In this document: positions 5,327 through 11,802 of the stretch, piece by piece
How the letters are laid out: the number at the start of each line of letters is the position of its first letter
How positions within the stretch are numbered: the stretch's first letter is position 1
Assembly: GCA_031283395.1 (NCBI GenBank)
Contig: JAITBV010000182.1
Span: 1-15,115, forward strand
Source: Candidatus Adiutrix sp.
GTDB taxonomy: Bacteria; Desulfobacterota; Desulfarculia; Adiutricales; Adiutricaceae
DNA: 15,115 bases
Reading direction: 5' to 3'
Program-made: the position numbers and the translations under genes
Notes under the pieces: model-generated
Seen by the model: only the letters and a program-made list of their open reading frames with translations
Database searches by the model: none
What the model was told of the DNA's origin: nothing

Positions 5327-6733
5327 TTATTTCCGCAATTTCTCGATCAGGCCCCCGACCGTTTCGACGGCGTCGCCCAACAGGAGAGCCGCCTTGGGGT
5401 TCTTATAGAGAGGGTTGTCGACGCCGGCATAACCGGGCTTGAGGTCGAGGTTGCAGATGATGATGTGCCGGGCCGCCTCGACGGCCAGGACCGGCATACC
5501 GTAGATGGGCGTCCCCTCGGCGGTATGGGCGGCGGGATTGATGACGTCGTTGGCCCCGACGACGACCGCCAGGTCGCATTCGGGGAAAGCGGGGTTGATC
5601 TCGTCCATCTCCTTAAGCTGCTCGTAGGGCACGGCCACCTCGGCCAACAGGACGTTCATGTGCCCCGGCATCCGTCCGGCCACCGGGTGGATGGCGTAAT
5701 CCACCAAAGCGCCGCCGGCCTCCAATTTATCGGCCAGTTCCTTGACCTGCGCCTGGGCCTGGGCCAGGGCCATGCCGTAGCCGGGGATGATGATGACCCG
5801 CCTGGCCGAGCGGAGGATCGCGCCCAGGTCGGCCGCCGGTTCCGGCCCGGCTTCCGGCCCGGCGGGAGCGGCCTCCGCCATCGGGGCGGCGGCCGGGGAG
5901 GAGGCGGCCGCGGCGGCCACCGAGGTCCGGCCCATGAGGATATCGGACAGGCCGCGGTTCATGGCGTGGCACATGCTCTGGGTGAGCAGGAGCCCGGCCG
6001 AGCCCACGACGCCGCCGACGGAAATGAGCAAAGGGTCGCCGACCGACATGCCCGCGCTGGCAATGGCCGTGCCGCTCAGGGAGTTCAACAGGGAGATGGT
6101 GATGGGCATATCCGCGCCCCCGATGCGGATGGCGAAGCTCACCCCGAGGAAACCGCTGAAGGCGGCGCAGGCGGTCACGGTCAGCCAGGCGGGCAGGAAC
6201 GGGCACCCGGCCGTACCGGCCCAGAAGAGCGAAAGCCCCAGGGCCAGGGCCGTCAGGATCTGGTGCCCCGGCCAGACCACGGGTCTCTGGTTCAAGCGCC
6301 CGCTCAGTTTCCCGGCGGCCACCAGGCTGCCCGCCAGGGTGACCATGCCGACGGCCAGGGCCAGCCCGGCCGTGATCAGGCTGAACAGGTCATCGGCGCC
6401 CTCAAACAGCTTTATCACGCCCACCACGGCCGCGGCCGCGCCGCAGAAACTTTTGAGCATGGCTATGGTCTGCGGCATGGCGATCATCCTGACCCGCCCG
6501 GCCCACCATAGACCGAAAATCGTCCCAAGGACTATGGGCCAGATTATGAGGCCCGGCTGAAGCGAAGCCGGATCGTGGCGGAGCAGGGCGAACAGGATGG
6601 CCAGGGCGACGCAGACCGCGCTCAGCCGGTTGCCCAGGACAGCGGTATGGACCTTGCTCAAACAGGCCAGGCCGAACAGCATCCCGACAACCAAAAGGCC
6701 GCAGGCCACGTAATAAACGGAAACGCTGATCAT
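5327..6733 (-). CDS. pntB: NAD(P) transhydrogenase subunit beta (PntB)
   Basis: PntB is the membrane and NADP(H)-binding subunit of proton-translocating transhydrogenase, which moves hydride between NADH and NADP+ coupled to proton flow across the inner membrane. The 468 aa match the family length. Residues 1 to about 265 are a string of hydrophobic helices (domain II). An Ala/Pro/Glu-rich linker follows (about 270-305). The C-terminal NADP domain (domain III) shows IIIPGYGMALAQAQ, HPVAGRMPGHMNVLLAEA-like residues (here LLAEVAVPYE), VVGANDVINPAA and a closing GVDNPLYKNPK segment. Its ATG overlaps the pntAb stop by 4 nt (ATGA), so translation is coupled. There is no terminator between it and the ubiE-type gene 40 nt downstream. 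Confidence 0.97.
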   Translation of the reverse strand: MISVSVYYVACGLLVVGMLFGLACLSKVHTAVLGNRLSAVCVALAILFALLRHDPASLQPGLIIWPIVLGTIFGLWWAGRVRMIAMPQTIAMLKSFCGAAAAVVGVIKLFEGADDLFSLITAGLALAVGMVTLAGSLVAAGKLSGRLNQRPVVWPGHQILTALALGLSLFWAGTAGCPFLPAWLTVTACAAFSGFLGVSFAIRIGGADMPITISLLNSLSGTAIASAGMSVGDPLLISVGGVVGSAGLLLTQSMCHAMNRGLSDILMGRTSVAAAAASSPAAAPMAEAAPAGPEAGPEPAADLGAILRSARRVIIIPGYGMALAQAQAQVKELADKLEAGGALVDYAIHPVAGRMPGHMNVLLAEVAVPYEQLKEMDEINPAFPECDLAVVVGANDVINPAAHTAEGTPIYGMPVLAVEAARHIIICNLDLKPGYAGVDNPLYKNPKAALLLGDAVETVGGLIEKLRK

Positions 6734-7050
6734 CGGCGGCCAGCCTCCTCCCCGCTCCGGCCGGCCACGGGGGCGGTCTTGCGGTCGAACATGTTCAGCA
6801 TCCGGCCCGTGACGTAAAAGCCGGCCGCTATATTGACCAGGGCCAGGGCGATGGCCACGGCCCCCAGGAGCTTGTTCTCCGGGCGGACCGCGGCGACAGT
6901 GGCCGCCAGGGTGCCCAGGACGGTCACGCCCGTTAAGGCGATCATCCCGGACATGAGCGGCGTGTGTAGCAGGCTGGGCACATTCTTGATCAGCTTGTAG
7001 CCGACCACCACGGATACGACAAAAATCGCGATCAGGCTCAGCGGACTCAT
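6730..7050 (-). CDS. pntAb: NAD(P) transhydrogenase alpha subunit, membrane part (PntAb)
   Basis: This 106-aa protein is the separate membrane portion of the alpha subunit, as in bacteria with a three-subunit transhydrogenase, rather than the fused PntA of E. coli. Hydrophobic segments are visible at about residues 4-20, 28-52 and 60-85, followed by a basic tail rich in Arg. It forms part of the proton channel with PntB. It overlaps pntAa by 4 nt at its start and pntB by 4 nt at its end, so the three chains should be made in fixed ratio. Identity rests on size, hydrophobicity and its position between two clear pnt genes. Confidence 0.94.
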   Translation of the reverse strand: MSPLSLIAIFVVSVVVGYKLIKNVPSLLHTPLMSGMIALTGVTVLGTLAATVAAVRPENKLLGAVAIALALVNIAAGFYVTGRMLNMFDRKTAPVAGRSGEEAGRR

Positions 7051-8204
7051 AGCCCCATGGCCTCCAGGGTGCCGGAGTGGACGATCTGGCCGTCGATGGT
7101 GGTCAGGATGGAGGACACGATCTCGTCCTGGCGGTCAAGGACTATTTTGCCGTCCTTGGTCAGGTACTTGACGAGGTTATAGATGTTGTTGGCGAACATC
7201 CAGGTCGAGCTGGTCGGGAGCAGGCCCGGGATATTCTTTATGCCGTTGATGGTGACGCCGTGCTTGACCGCGACCTCGCCGGGAGGGGTGATGGCGCAAT
7301 TGCCGCCCTGGTCGATGGATATATCGACGATGACCGAGCCGGCGGACATCTTTTTGACCATGTCCTCGGTGATCAGTATGGGAGCCTGTTTGCCGGGTAT
7401 CAGCGCGCCGCAGAAGACGATGTCCATCTGGGGCAGCAGGGCGGCTATCTTCTCGCGCTCCTTGACCAGCCATTCCTCGGGGAGGGTTTTGGCGTACCCG
7501 CCCTGCCCGACGGACAATTCGGCCGGCACCCCTATATCGACGACCTTGGCCCCGAGGCTCTTGGCCTGCTCGGCGGCGTCCGGCCGGATATCGGCGGCGT
7601 GGACCACGGCGCCCAGGCGCTTGGCCGTGGCTATGGCCTGAAGACCGCTGCCCCCGGCGCCGATCACCAGCACGTTTCCGGGGCTGATGGCCCCGACCGC
7701 GCAGAAGATCTGCGGCACGAACTTGGCCAGGGCATTGGCGGCCATGATGATGCCCTTATACCCGGCGCAGGTGCTCATTGAGGTCAGGGCGTCCATGTTC
7801 TGGGCGCGCGTGATCCGGGGGATGCCGTCCAGGGTCAGGCCGACCACGCCCTTGGCGGCCATATTGCGCACCATCTCATGGTTGGCCGGAGACGCCGGGT
7901 GAAGAAAAGTGATAATGATCTGCCCCGGGCGCAGCATATCCACCTCGTGGCAGTTCTTGGCCTGGTTGAACAGGGGCTCCTTGACTTTCAGTATCACTTC
8001 GGCCTTGGCGAACACTTCGGCCGGGCCGTCCACCAGGGTCGCGCCCTGGGCCGCATACTGCTCGTCGGCGAACAGGGCGCCGATGCCCGCGCCCCGCTCC
8101 ACCAGGACCGTGGCCCCGTCCTTGACCAGCTTGCCCGCGGTATCGGGCGTCGCGGCGACCCGCCTCTCCCCGAGCATGATCTCCTTGGGAACGCCGATAA
8201 TCAT
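7047..8204 (-). CDS. pntAa: NAD(P) transhydrogenase alpha subunit, NAD-binding part (PntAa)
   Basis: This 385-aa soluble NAD(H)-binding subunit (domain I) belongs to the alanine dehydrogenase/PntAA superfamily. The N-terminus reads MIIGVPKEIMLGERRVAATP, the family opening. The dinucleotide-binding loop is VLVIGAGGSGLQAIATAKRLGA, with the acidic residue in AADIRP at the end of the second strand. Other landmarks are FLHPAS, MDALTSMS and VIVDISIDQGGNCAITPPGE, the last a hallmark of the family and distinguishing PntA from Ald only by context. The neighbouring pntAb and pntB make transhydrogenase certain. The Shine-Dalgarno GGAGG (8214-8218) lies 9 nt before ATG. This is the first gene of a five-gene - strand operon. 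Confidence 0.97.
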   Translation of the reverse strand: MIIGVPKEIMLGERRVAATPDTAGKLVKDGATVLVERGAGIGALFADEQYAAQGATLVDGPAEVFAKAEVILKVKEPLFNQAKNCHEVDMLRPGQIIITFLHPASPANHEMVRNMAAKGVVGLTLDGIPRITRAQNMDALTSMSTCAGYKGIIMAANALAKFVPQIFCAVGAISPGNVLVIGAGGSGLQAIATAKRLGAVVHAADIRPDAAEQAKSLGAKVVDIGVPAELSVGQGGYAKTLPEEWLVKEREKIAALLPQMDIVFCGALIPGKQAPILITEDMVKKMSAGSVIVDISIDQGGNCAITPPGEVAVKHGVTINGIKNIPGLLPTSSTWMFANNIYNLVKYLTKDGKIVLDRQDEIVSSILTTIDGQIVHSGTLEAMGL

Positions 8205-9139: not shown

Positions 9140-9595
9140 TCAGGCGGGCCGGCTTATGTAAGCCTGGTGGTCGGGCGGAACGGCCTGGTAATCACCGTCA
9201 AAGAGTTCCGAGGATATCACGTAGTCGGCCGTGGAGCGGGTGCAGGCCACGACGATATTGGCAATGGTCGAAAGGCGGATGAGGGCCTTTATGTCCACGT
9301 CGTGGGGCTGCATGGTCATGGGGTCGGTGAAGAAGATGAGTATGTCCAGCCGGCCCTCGGCAATAAGGGCCCCCATTTGCTGGTCGCCGCCCAAGGGGCC
9401 GGATTTCAGGCAGGTGAGGTCCAAAGCCAGGTCGGGATATTGCTCGGTGAATATCTGCCGTATGCGGTTTCCGGTGGTGCCGGTGCATACCAGCCGATGA
9501 TGAGCGAGACGGAGGGCGTTGAAAGCCGCCCATTCGATCATATCTTTCTTACAGGCGTCATGGGCGATCAGCCCGATGACTTTCCGCCGTTTCAT
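9140..9595 (-). CDS. mgsA: Methylglyoxal synthase
   Basis: MgsA converts dihydroxyacetone phosphate to methylglyoxal and phosphate, a bypass of lower glycolysis used under phosphate limitation or sugar-phosphate overload. The 151 aa match the family size. Catalytic and binding residues are visible: AHDACK (H12, equivalent to E. coli H19), SGPLGGDQQ with the catalytic base D71, FTDPMTMQPHDVD with H98 and D101, and the conserved helix segment ALIRLSTIANIVVA. The start at 9595 is preferred over an in-frame start 30 nt upstream because GGAGGAGG precedes it. It is transcribed alone, from a promoter near 9697-9724. The 120-130 nt after the stop hold no clear terminator. Confidence 0.95.
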   Translation of the reverse strand: MKRRKVIGLIAHDACKKDMIEWAAFNALRLAHHRLVCTGTTGNRIRQIFTEQYPDLALDLTCLKSGPLGGDQQMGALIAEGRLDILIFFTDPMTMQPHDVDIKALIRLSTIANIVVACTRSTADYVISSELFDGDYQAVPPDHQAYISRPA

Positions 9596-9664
9596 TTTTT
9601 CCTCCTCCGCTCCCTGGCGCAACATCCGGCCACACGGCCAAACATTTAAATATTACAATATCTT

Positions 9665-9724: not shown

Positions 9725-9773
9725 GACTTTAGTTACTCCCCCAATTACTCACCTGGCCGATTCGGAGGATAAA

Positions 9774-10094
9774 TCAGCGTTGCCATTTGTCGGTCAGGGC
9801 TTTTTCCACCGCTTCACCGATTAGCCTTTCTATATTTCCAGCAAGGGTATCGTGAAGTTTTTCCATTGCGCTTTCAGGAGAATGTTTTACCTGAAAAAGC
9901 TCATACGCCTCAATTTCTAAAGCCCTGGCAATGCGTTCCAGCACTTCCGGGGTTGGAAATTTTCTGGAAACCTCAATCATGGCAATGTATTGTGTTGAAA
10001 TATTGGCTTTTTCCGATAACTTGGCTTGAGAAAGACCGCATTTTTTACGGTTTTCCTTCAAATTATTCGCCAGAATATCCCGGAGATTGGCCAT
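9774..10094 (-). CDS. XRE-family helix-turn-helix transcriptional regulator
   Basis: This is a 106-aa protein with a Cro/C1-type helix-turn-helix at about residues 8-65: NLKENRKKCGLSQAKLSEKA, then STQYIAMIEVSRKFPTPEVLERIARALEI, the classic five-helix pattern (LSQ..LA..., .S..YI..IE.G....P....L..IA.AL). A short C-terminal helix (about 75-105, Glu/Lys-rich) may serve in dimer formation. The weak ribosome binding site AGGTAATGG lies before ATG. It is divergent from the nuclease-methyltransferase fusion gene across a 218-bp region packed with repeats, the arrangement of controller (C) proteins of restriction-modification systems, which also are small XRE proteins. A controller or repressor role for that module is inference. 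Base composition is AT-richer than in the housekeeping genes to the left. Confidence 0.9.
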   Translation of the reverse strand: MANLRDILANNLKENRKKCGLSQAKLSEKANISTQYIAMIEVSRKFPTPEVLERIARALEIEAYELFQVKHSPESAMEKLHDTLAGNIERLIGEAVEKALTDKWQR

Positions 10095-10121
10095 TCCATT
10101 ACCTATTTTGCCTAAAAGACA

Positions 10122-10149
10122 AGGATAAACGCTTAATAGTATTTGACAA
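10122..10149 (-). promoter_or_regulatory. Candidate promoter of the XRE gene
   Basis: The - strand has TTGTCA (-35, 10144-10149), a 16-nt spacer and TATCCT (-10, 10122-10127; 4/6). The -35 overlaps the -35 of the opposing promoter by five bases. The CTAAAAGAC box (10112-10120) covers the expected start site, consistent with autoregulation. Confidence 0.45.
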
Positions 10150-10171
10150 GCGTCTTTTAGTTATATAAAAT
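10143..10171 (+). promoter_or_regulatory. Sigma-70-type promoter of the nuclease-methyltransferase gene
   Basis: On the + strand TTGACA (-35, 10143-10148, perfect) is followed after 17 nt by TAAAAT (-10, 10166-10171, 5/6). The GTCTTTTAG box (10152-10160) lies in the spacer, where a bound regulator would block polymerase. The leader to the ATG at 10313 would be about 135 nt and holds further inverted repeats. Confidence 0.6.
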
Positions 10172-10176
10172 TGTCT

Positions 10177-10220
10177 ATTAGATATTTATTTACGCCTGCA
10201 GCGAGCGCTAAATATCTAAT
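10177..10220. repeat. 12-bp perfect inverted repeat
   Basis: ATTAGATATTTA (10177-10188) is exactly complementary to TAAATATCTAAT (10209-10220), with a 20-nt spacer that is GC-rich in its second part. It would lie in the leader of the fusion-gene transcript, so it could be an mRNA hairpin or a DNA binding site. It has no T-run, so it is not a standard terminator. Confidence 0.6.
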
Positions 10221-10252
10221 TGCTTAATTATTTATCGTCATATTGGGCGATT

Positions 10253-10283
10253 GCCTTGAAGGCCGCTCAAATCTCCTTGAAGG
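10253..10283. repeat. Tandem CCTTGAAGG palindromes, 21 bp apart
   Basis: CCTTGAAGG (itself a CCTT-n-AAGG palindrome) occurs at 10254-10262 and 10275-10283, with the first copy extended to GCCTTGAAGGC. Spacing is two helical turns, as expected for two dimers on one DNA face, 30 nt before the fusion gene. Confidence 0.5.
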
Positions 10284-10312
10284 TGTTGAAAATCTCTCAT
10301 GAGATATAGCAA

Positions 10313-11641
10313 ATGGATGGCGGGGGTTTGAAGAGGAATATGCTGTTTGATATAGGAGAAAAAAAACAAAAGAACAAGCAATACATCTATATTATTCAGG
10401 CGCTATTAGAACCTGCTAAATGCAAAATAGGCAAGACCAATAACCTCGAGCGCCGATTACGGGATTACAATAATATGACGGGTGTATCAAAGGATAACCC
10501 GTATTTTTATTTATTCACCTGTGAAGTCAAAAATATGCGGGAGGTTGAAAACGCTATAAAGGCGGAATTTATCATTCAACGTGAAGAATCAAGCAAGGAA
10601 ATATATTTCTATAACTCCGCTTTGTTTAATGGGTATGTGGCATTCATAAAATCTCATAGCCAGTTTACCAAAGAGATTTTCACTAAACCAGAGGATAAAA
10701 AACGTGTTATAAAGATTGTCAAAAAAACAACCCCATCATTGAAAGAGAGAGGATTATCGCAACAAAACGTAATGCAAAAGGCACAGAGAAAAGACAATGA
10801 TGAATTTTATACCCGGCTTGAGGATGTTGAAAAAGAATTGTCCATGTATCCTAAAAGCATTTGGAGAAATAAAACCGTGTTTTGTAATTGCGATGACGCT
10901 GTTGACAACAACGCCAAAAACACATCGGCATTCGCATTATACTTTCTGGAACACTTTAAAGAATTGGAATTGAAAAAGCTTATATGCACACACTATAGTG
11001 GGATGGTTGATTTATTTAATCAAGGTATACGGGGATATGTGTTCACAAAGACTGGCTATAAGGAATTCAAAGAATTTCCAGATGGGTATATGGGCAGTTT
11101 TGACGATGATCTGTCATTGAAGATTCTAAAAGAGGATGCGGATATAGTATGCACTAATCCACCTTTTTCAAGAATGAGGGACTATTGGAAAATAACCATT
11201 GAAAGCAAAAAGCTGTTTTTGATTATTTCTAATATAGCAAACCCAATAACAAACGCTTTTATTCCGTATTTCTATGAAGGTAAAGTTAAGCCAGGTTATA
11301 ATCGCATAGACTATTTTCTGAACCCTAAAAGGGAACTTGTGGATGCTTCTGGACACTGGTTTACAAATTTTCCTATAAGAAACAGGCCAAAATATAAACA
11401 CCTGAAAATTGTTCCATTAAAAGAGATTCCGGAAAAATACAAAAAATTTGATGATTCCAAAATGCTTATTGTTGACCATTGCTATATTCCAAGTGATTAC
11501 AAAAAACCGTTTATAGTTTCCGCCCGCCCAATCCTAAATGGCCTATTGGAAAAGGGCTATTCAATAGTTCAGGATCGGGGATATATTCCCTATGTCAGCG
11601 GGAAGGAGTGTTTTAGAAGAGTTATGGTTAAAAGGGATTAG
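10313..11641 (+). CDS. GIY-YIG/T5orf172-like nuclease domain fused to EcoRI-type adenine DNA methyltransferase
   Basis: This is a 442-aa two-domain protein. Residues about 22-112 look like the GIY-YIG superfamily in its T5orf172/MUG113 form: YIYII (24-28), then CKIGKTNNLERRLRDYN (37-53) with the conserved Arg in the helix (R47/R48), EVENAIKAEF with the metal-ligand Glu (E79), and KEIYFYN (95-101). A basic linker follows (about 120-160). Residues about 160-440 match the M.EcoRI family of N6-adenine methyltransferases: DEFYTRLEDVEKEL (163-176), VFCNCDD (189-195), LKKLICTHYSG (220-230), ADIVCTNPPFSRMRDYW (276-292) with catalytic NPPF at 282-285, then LFLIISN. A separate restriction gene is not seen nearby. 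The ATG at 10313 has a weak ribosome binding site; M10 (10340), just after AGAGGAAT, is an alternative and loses no domain. It is divergent from an XRE gene and AT-rich, so probably acquired. The protein may cut and methylate DNA; nuclease activity is inferred from residues only. Confidence 0.87.
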   Translation: MDGGGLKRNMLFDIGEKKQKNKQYIYIIQALLEPAKCKIGKTNNLERRLRDYNNMTGVSKDNPYFYLFTCEVKNMREVENAIKAEFIIQREESSKEIYFYNSALFNGYVAFIKSHSQFTKEIFTKPEDKKRVIKIVKKTTPSLKERGLSQQNVMQKAQRKDNDEFYTRLEDVEKELSMYPKSIWRNKTVFCNCDDAVDNNAKNTSAFALYFLEHFKELELKKLICTHYSGMVDLFNQGIRGYVFTKTGYKEFKEFPDGYMGSFDDDLSLKILKEDADIVCTNPPFSRMRDYWKITIESKKLFLIISNIANPITNAFIPYFYEGKVKPGYNRIDYFLNPKRELVDASGHWFTNFPIRNRPKYKHLKIVPLKEIPEKYKKFDDSKMLIVDHCYIPSDYKKPFIVSARPILNGLLEKGYSIVQDRGYIPYVSGKECFRRVMVKRD

Positions 11642-11642
11642 C

Positions 11643-11701
11643 CAGTTTTCGAATAAATAAAAAGGAGACTATTATGGCTAGATGTCCTTTATTCAAAACT
11701 G
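11643..11701 (+). promoter_or_regulatory. Inverted repeat enclosing the ribosome binding site and start of a small ORF
   Basis: CAGTTTT-C-GAATAAA (11643-11657) pairs with TTTATTCAAAACTG (11688-11701): 14 bp with a single bulged C. The 30-nt loop (11658-11687) contains AAAGGAG and the ATG of the small Cys-rich ORF. It may control translation or mRNA stability. It is not a terminator, since no T-run follows. Confidence 0.5.
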
Positions 11702-11802
11702 ACTGTCTTGAGATGAATTGTGTTTAGTTTGATTGCCAGGTATGCAACCGCGCCACAAGAATGTTTATACTGGCGGCCACGAAATTCTGCTTCATTGACT
11801 GA
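11674..11802 (+). pseudogene. Small Cys-rich ORF interrupted by an in-frame amber codon
   Basis: A strong ribosome binding site (AAAAGGAG, 11659-11666) precedes ATG at 11674. The frame reads MARCPLFKTDCLEMNCV, then TAG (11725-11727), then FDCQVCNRATRMF and on to TGA at 11800-11802, 42 codons in all counting the amber. Cysteines lie on both sides of the TAG with zinc-site-like spacing (C4, C11, C16, C21, C24), so the real product seems to span the stop. A TGG (Trp) to TAG change is the simplest history. Other readings are a true 17-aa peptide, UAG read-through or pyrrolysine use, or a sequencing error. It starts 32 nt after the stop of the fusion gene and so could share its transcript. No family is recognised with confidence. 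Confidence 0.4.

Follow-up and report, generated by a model that had tools for sequence, protein, structure and literature searches.

In the EcoRI system the restriction enzyme R.EcoRI and the methyltransferase M.EcoRI comprise 277 and 326 aa, respectively (PMC4081073), against about 430 aa in the single chain described here. Our locus has in common with this system the methyltransferase family (PF13651) and the nuclease-before-methylase order, but R.EcoRI is a separate PD-(D/E)XK enzyme, whereas here a short GIY-YIG domain sits on the methylase chain. Enzymes of types IIC and IIG are typically larger, possess PD-(D/E)XK nucleases and have a separate target-recognition domain; the fusion combines a GIY-YIG nuclease with an EcoRI-type methylase instead. 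What it shares with these enzymes (BcgI, MmeI, TspDTI and kin) is the placement of a nuclease and an m6A methylase on one chain, as outlined in PMC3039593. The same source describes RM.Eco29kI, in which a GIY-YIG REase precedes a methylase on one chain, as in the natural fusion; both activities were shown and protection against phage was weaker than that of the wild type. RM.Eco29kI is man-made, its methylase is of the m5C type, and its nuclease and methylase families differ from those of the fusion. R.Hpy188I, a GIY-YIG type II restriction enzyme, has the catalytic Glu, like the fusion, but is a separate protein with a separate methylase. As described in PMC2630997, Lys replaces the Tyr of the YIG motif in this enzyme and the Arg is present, which is also the case in the fusion. 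Association of a methylase with a GIY-YIG/T5orf172 nuclease is reported for DnmA-YeeB-YeeC (PMC9973331) and for OspHL35III-type systems (PMC4752239); in both, the components are separate proteins and include a helicase or translocase, and the OspHL35III methylase is MmeI-like. A natural fusion is likewise reported from lactobacilli, where a COG4123 class I methyltransferase is N-terminal to an Slx1-like GIY-YIG domain; going by that account, the domain order is the opposite, the methyltransferase family is another one and the nuclease is of the Slx1 type (PMC1564403). No paper describing the pairing of GIY-YIG with an EcoRI-type methylase was recognised in full-text searches (REBASE, preprints and most subscription papers lay outside their scope), and the pairing is apparently undescribed so far.

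The window, i.e., the whole stretch of 15,115 nucleotides of Candidatus Adiutrix sp. DNA that was analysed, encodes such a protein (Table 1). The original prediction, a GIY-YIG/T5orf172 domain fused to an M.EcoRI-type methylase, was confirmed for both parts by profiles, AlphaFold models and structure comparison, and the ORF is a genuine fusion of a nuclease with a complete M.EcoRI-type methyltransferase. Its start codon is uncertain, with homology setting in near residue 20. Among Pfam models, T5orf172 (PF10544) matched residues 23-92 (E=1.9e-10; 41.6 bits, cut-off 20) and MUG113 residues 37-94 (6.2e-7); the plain GIY-YIG model scored below its cut-off, and no NUMOD-type DNA-binding module was found in the protein. 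EcoRI_methylase (PF13651) matched at 4.5e-34 (118.7 bits, cut-off 26.4) in two stretches, the best of them beginning at residue 154, and the type II methyltransferase model of PADLOC covered residues 151-397 (1.7e-33). The N-terminal domain also matches the candidate defence family PDC-S57 (PADLOC; residues 20-99, 3.3e-10) and phrog_18781 of PHROGs (function unknown; 4.8e-10), and NCBIfam profiles gave no match to the fusion protein.

Table 1 Features of the fusion gene and its immediate surroundings in the window
Feature	Positions	Strand	Remarks
Low-GC island	9750..11750		GC 0.34-0.40; outside, GC climbs from 0.45 to 0.68
XRE-type HTH regulator, 106 aa	9774..10094	-	Divergent, inside the low-GC island; matches R-M controller models
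Promoter-like TTGACA-17-TAAAAT	10143..10171	+	11/12, 141 bp before ATG; consensus match only
Fusion ORF, 442 aa	10313..11641	+	GIY-YIG (T5orf172-type) nuclease domain and EcoRI-type adenine methyltransferase
Nuclease domain, residues 23-125	10379..10687	+	Y26, K38, R48, E79, N101
Linker and beginning of methylase, residues 126-153	10688..10771	+	Model confidence low at 129-139
EcoRI-type adenine methyltransferase domain, residues 154-442	10772..11638	+	Pfam, PADLOC, alignment
Codons of N-P-P-F catalytic motif, residues 282-285	11156..11167	+	TNPPF in the protein

The predicted structure of the N-terminal domain has the two-strand, helix, strand, helix layout of the GIY-YIG fold, with Lys38 standing where the YIG motif has Tyr and with the catalytic tyrosine, the helix arginine, the glutamate that binds metal in this superfamily and the asparagine of the domain in place; DNA cleavage by GIY-YIG nucleases depends on a divalent metal. 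Searches with the fusion protein against sequences of solved structures gave nothing at E<=1, and the A3 profile nothing against solved chains at E<=10; A2 returned two weak BURRH matches (E 0.4) among solved structures. R.Hpy188I and R.Eco29kI are absent among the fold matches listed, which excludes nothing. Like type IIC enzymes, which restrict and modify one and the same site, the protein unites a nuclease and a methylase domain in a single polypeptide.

The drop in GC content suggests that the island around the fusion gene was acquired from elsewhere. No HTH gene was found among the neighbour clusters common to at least three loci, and no shared terminal repeats or target-site duplication were recognised around the window copy. 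Promoter-like sites in the region number 12, against 6.9 in shuffles, and GAATTC, in which M.EcoRI methylates adenine, occurs four times in the window against 5.3 expected, a count that is uninformative on the fusion's own motif. Directly 3' of the fusion gene, behind an AAGGAG-like site, lies a 17-codon ORF (MARCPLFKTDCLEMNCV, 11674-11727), possibly left over from a Cys-rich protein. An ordinary host gene at 9140-9625 encodes a methylglyoxal-synthase-like protein with an MGS domain (Pfam); the pntB/pntA-like transhydrogenase genes (5327-8204) and the S-adenosylmethionine synthetase gene (1-1131) are ordinary host genes as well. The contig further carries a gene for an M16 peptidase, whose nearest named counterparts belong to Deltaproteobacteria bacterium Smac51 and Candidatus Adiutrix (60-63% identity); matches of 64-87% are to proteins named by function or not at all.

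Far from being a single case, the fusion represents a large family that is well conserved. Out of 7999 scored candidates, 6438 reached E<=1e-3, and in the 120 matches listed, for which the architecture was seen, T5orf172 and EcoRI_methylase were both present without exception (120/120). Databases label these proteins by domain, either as 'GIY-YIG nuclease family protein' or as 'adenine-specific methyltransferase EcoRI family protein'. Conservation was assessed in 185 distinct full-length rows, made up of the window copy, the listed homologues and the locus copies covering both ends, with truncated locus copies left out. Kept among them were Y26 in 183, K38 in 184, R48 in 183, E79 in 185, N101 in 181 and NPPF in 185. 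The concern that the N-terminal part might not be GIY-YIG, or might have lost its Arg or Glu in homologues, is not borne out: the fold is predicted and the residues are near-invariant. In ten gene pairs nuclease omega spans 0.00-0.29 and methylase omega 0.07-0.23, the nuclease value being the lower one in eight of them, with the qualification that the pairs are not independent, because five reuse the same five Helicobacter genes. Purifying selection acts on the nuclease as on the methylase in all ten. Pairwise distances of nuclease and methylase correlate (r=0.73) as do those of one methylase half with the other (0.70), and the two halves of the fusion evolved together.

Against this background, an ancient or decaying fusion whose nuclease is functionless is very unlikely. 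Decay does occur: the reading frame is broken in the linker of copies in two genomes (G086 and G077), one genome (G042) of the Helicobacter genus discussed below has a degraded copy with 27 stops, and in G083 only the nuclease part is present, counted as a remnant because an in-frame stop just precedes it. However, the low nuclease omega in all ten pairs and the near-invariance of the catalytic residues are not what a functionless domain would leave.

We surveyed the 134 nearest neighbours of the fusion in 80 loci (136 were chosen and two left out for size), viewing the 25 commonest of 78 and the 25 commonest of 185 neighbour families. No restriction gene recurs beside the fusion among these neighbours in the 25 commonest families. 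The commonest neighbour Pfam families, with three members each, are ExbD, DNA ligase and IS1595-type transposase. One neighbour matched a type II REase of PADLOC and one a specificity subunit of type I, two matched Uma2 of Pfam ('putative restriction endonuclease'), and mad3, PDC-S02, PDC-S03 and other defence models had one or two members each; given these few defence-model neighbours, or single undisplayed matches, some loci may conceal a partner. In two classical EcoRI-type loci, one from a phage of Helicobacter and the other from a plasmid of Klebsiella, R stands immediately 5' of M, and residue 18 of the plasmid EcoRI-family M aligns with residue 162 of the fusion (34% identity over 273 columns). 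From the order of R before M and from this point of alignment it follows that the nuclease domain occupies the place of R.

Two conserved active sites, the lack of a recurrent partner and the gene order of restriction-modification (R-M) loci together point to a single-chain restriction-modification enzyme. We consider it probable, at roughly 0.6, that the fusion is a self-contained single-gene restriction-modification system, type IIC-like, in which cutting would rely on the methylase half for recognition. Of the single-polypeptide R-M enzyme suggested in the original prediction, the architecture therefore stands, and the function is the best-supported reading of it. Less likely is the other suggestion, by which the N-terminal domain would serve target choice or phage response alone, since a complete nuclease active site is kept. 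Several observations count against the R-M reading: the 185 full-length rows reveal no conspicuous hypervariable block for target recognition, the many similar copies per genome described below seem redundant for restriction, a partner may be concealed in some loci, and methylase and nuclease each occur alone as well.

The two halves are also found apart. Tandem arrays comprise a pair of fusions with a methylase-only copy behind them in L009 (8574-12303), a single fusion ahead of three methylase-only copies in L060 (3830-8419), where the final copy has NPSF and not NPPF, a fusion with a partial methylase in L032, two copies in L027 and another two in L034, one of these cut by the contig end. 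In L009 the methylase-only copy begins with residues that match the fusion start, the picture that an in-frame deletion of the nuclease domain would give. Methylase-only copies inside contigs occur. Nuclease-only ORFs are represented by a 129-aa protein of Helicobacter ailurogastricus on a 1.58-Mb contig (P0198), by P0133 on a 175-kb contig and by two clusters of Brachyspira hyodysenteriae with 39 and 7 members (P0155 and P0156). The proteins of these clusters begin with TRPDQ repeats and end within the linker; the repeats may correspond to a pentanucleotide repeat in the DNA, as judged from the protein alone. Nine nuclease-only pieces were seen in 39 genomes, seven at contig ends; the other two are accounted for by two small pieces on contig C93 of G014 and by the N-terminal part of the H. 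heilmannii copy. In H. heilmannii a run of N separates the halves, and whether the gene is split there is undecidable. An asymmetry between nuclease-only and methylase-only copies, considered as a sign of toxicity, was dropped; nuclease-only ORFs occur on long contigs. The linker frame breaks and nuclease-only ORFs show that the halves also separate. Evidently the nuclease alone is tolerated, which fits a nuclease needing the methylase for DNA binding but also an inactive domain. As nuclease-only ORFs are tolerated and the domain of about 100 residues comes without a DNA-binding module recognised by Pfam, we infer that cutting would depend on recognition by the methylase half, as it does in type IIC/IIG enzymes.

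Persistence of methylase-only copies beside fusions and tolerance of nuclease-only ORFs would also suit a solitary epigenetic methyltransferase, whose GIY-YIG accessory would bind DNA, nick it or act as a sensor of phage or of modified DNA, with no classical restriction involved. To these can be added the repeat tracts at the start of the gene in some relatives, which resemble those of phase-variable regulatory methyltransferases. Homopolymers of at least eight, poly-C in L025 (9946) and L044 (9806) and poly-G in L039 (9987) and L057 (9168), lie upstream of the domain and downstream of the ATG nearest to it; in none of the four is this ATG in frame with the remainder. Pentanucleotide tracts were found in L056, (AGGAC)11 at 9964, and in L062, (GGACA)4 at 1. 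Four such G/C runs fall within the 11,750 bases of the 80 start regions, compared with 19 in 1,053,504 bases elsewhere (Fisher p=1.1e-4), and pentamer repeats two in start regions against none elsewhere in the 80 loci; p-values for the tracts are rough, the loci being related and the start regions having been counted after tracts were noticed there. Judged from these sequences, the start tracts look like phase variation of the whole chain in some relatives. The window copy is without a G/C run of eight but has an A8 run (10359-10366) that follows the first ATGs and precedes the nuclease domain, a possible slippage site. In G020, the genome of L025, a stand-alone EcoRI-type methylase match on the minus strand of contig C15 extends to 3426, and a poly-C (C15:3428) lies two bases beyond its 5' end, so that phase variation is possible for this methylase as well. 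The solitary methyltransferase is nevertheless unlikely: a full nuclease active site kept nearly everywhere under strong purifying selection exceeds what a binding platform would need.

The fusion family crosses many phyla and is mobile as a gene-sized unit. Scanning one genome per species yielded 208 stretches that encode a relative; we retained the best 80, which make up 79 loci. These best 79 loci span nine phyla (by record title), and gut MAGs, again read from record titles, are many of their sources. On a FastTree of 76 rows (with the window in twice), the phylum label changes 23 times, the minimum possible being 8. Copies per genome were counted in 39 genomes reached through the loci. 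One of these, MAG G011, has 11 copies covering at least model positions 35-427 plus two fragments at contig ends; the nine of its copies that the tree includes form one clade, and the copies therefore multiply and disperse within one genome. Homology of paralogue flanks reaches no further than about 30-75 bp upstream, a stretch that is often promoter-like, and about 25 bp downstream.

The genus to which G036 (the Helicobacter of L074) belongs was represented by 14 genomes; eight of them match, six with a full-length open copy and one with the stop-ridden remnant mentioned above. The gene is located between exbD and ligA in five of the 14; in two others exbD is directly followed by ligA with an empty junction of about 20 bp, and in the remaining seven exbD was not found beside ligA in the stretch examined. 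The fusion products of G036 and G049 are 99.3% identical against 88.4% for LigA, while those of G036 and G039 are 74.3% identical against 93.9% for LigA. Identity of the fusion is out of step with that of LigA, and alleles are therefore exchanged at the exbD-ligA site. Among genomes of the Brachyspira genus of G025, 6/26 match. The phage and plasmid collections hold 8 and 29 matching records, respectively, none over 80% of the query; every listed match starts at residue 142 or later, and these are for that reason methylase-only relatives. The set viral_contigs contributed one relative among 159 pattern stretches.

Mobility of this kind would be expected of a homing-like selfish gene, in which the nuclease opens target DNA for its own spread and the methylase protects resident copies. 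The gene-sized insertion between exbD and ligA, the replacement of alleles there and the dispersed clade of copies in one genome favour it, as does the scarcity of transposases nearby, the IS1595-type (3/134 neighbours) being the sole one in the 25 commonest neighbour families. Yet homologous recombination and ordinary gain and loss account equally well for the allele replacement. The single conserved cognate insertion site typical of GIY-YIG homing endonucleases was not found: neighbours vary between loci, the exbD-ligA site is common to one Helicobacter clade only, sites differ widely and no shared target sequence was seen in the flanks examined. With the lack of a NUMOD-type module in addition, homing is quite unlikely. 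A related possibility is a one-gene selfish R-M element, whose nuclease both restricts foreign DNA and drives transposase-free spread of the gene inside genomes and among those of many phyla, whose methylase protects resident copies and which some lineages switch as a whole via tracts at its start; this, too, we regard as distinctly improbable.

If the fusion is indeed a single-chain restriction-modification enzyme, its EcoRI-type methyltransferase half would recognise a DNA sequence and methylate adenine there, and the tethered N-terminal GIY-YIG domain would cut DNA where the methylase's sequence is unmethylated, in what may be a defence role. Two molecules on the DNA would plausibly be needed for cutting both strands, whereas a monomer would methylate; regulation by assembly has been proposed for type IIC enzymes in general (PMC12707154). 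With methylation by the monomer and cutting by the dimer, a new host would be methylated before being cut. The gene spreads across phyla as a unit barely larger than the ORF.

An active fusion would fit both activities of a complete R-M system into about 430 residues, which is very compact, and would be the natural equivalent of the engineered chain in which a GIY-YIG nuclease is joined to a methylase. It would also mean that a nuclease of unrelated fold can share a chain with an EcoRI-type methylase. With thousands of database members, movement across phyla, multiplication within genomes and apparent phase variation in some lineages, the family could influence how bacteria of the animal gut exchange genes and vary epigenetically.
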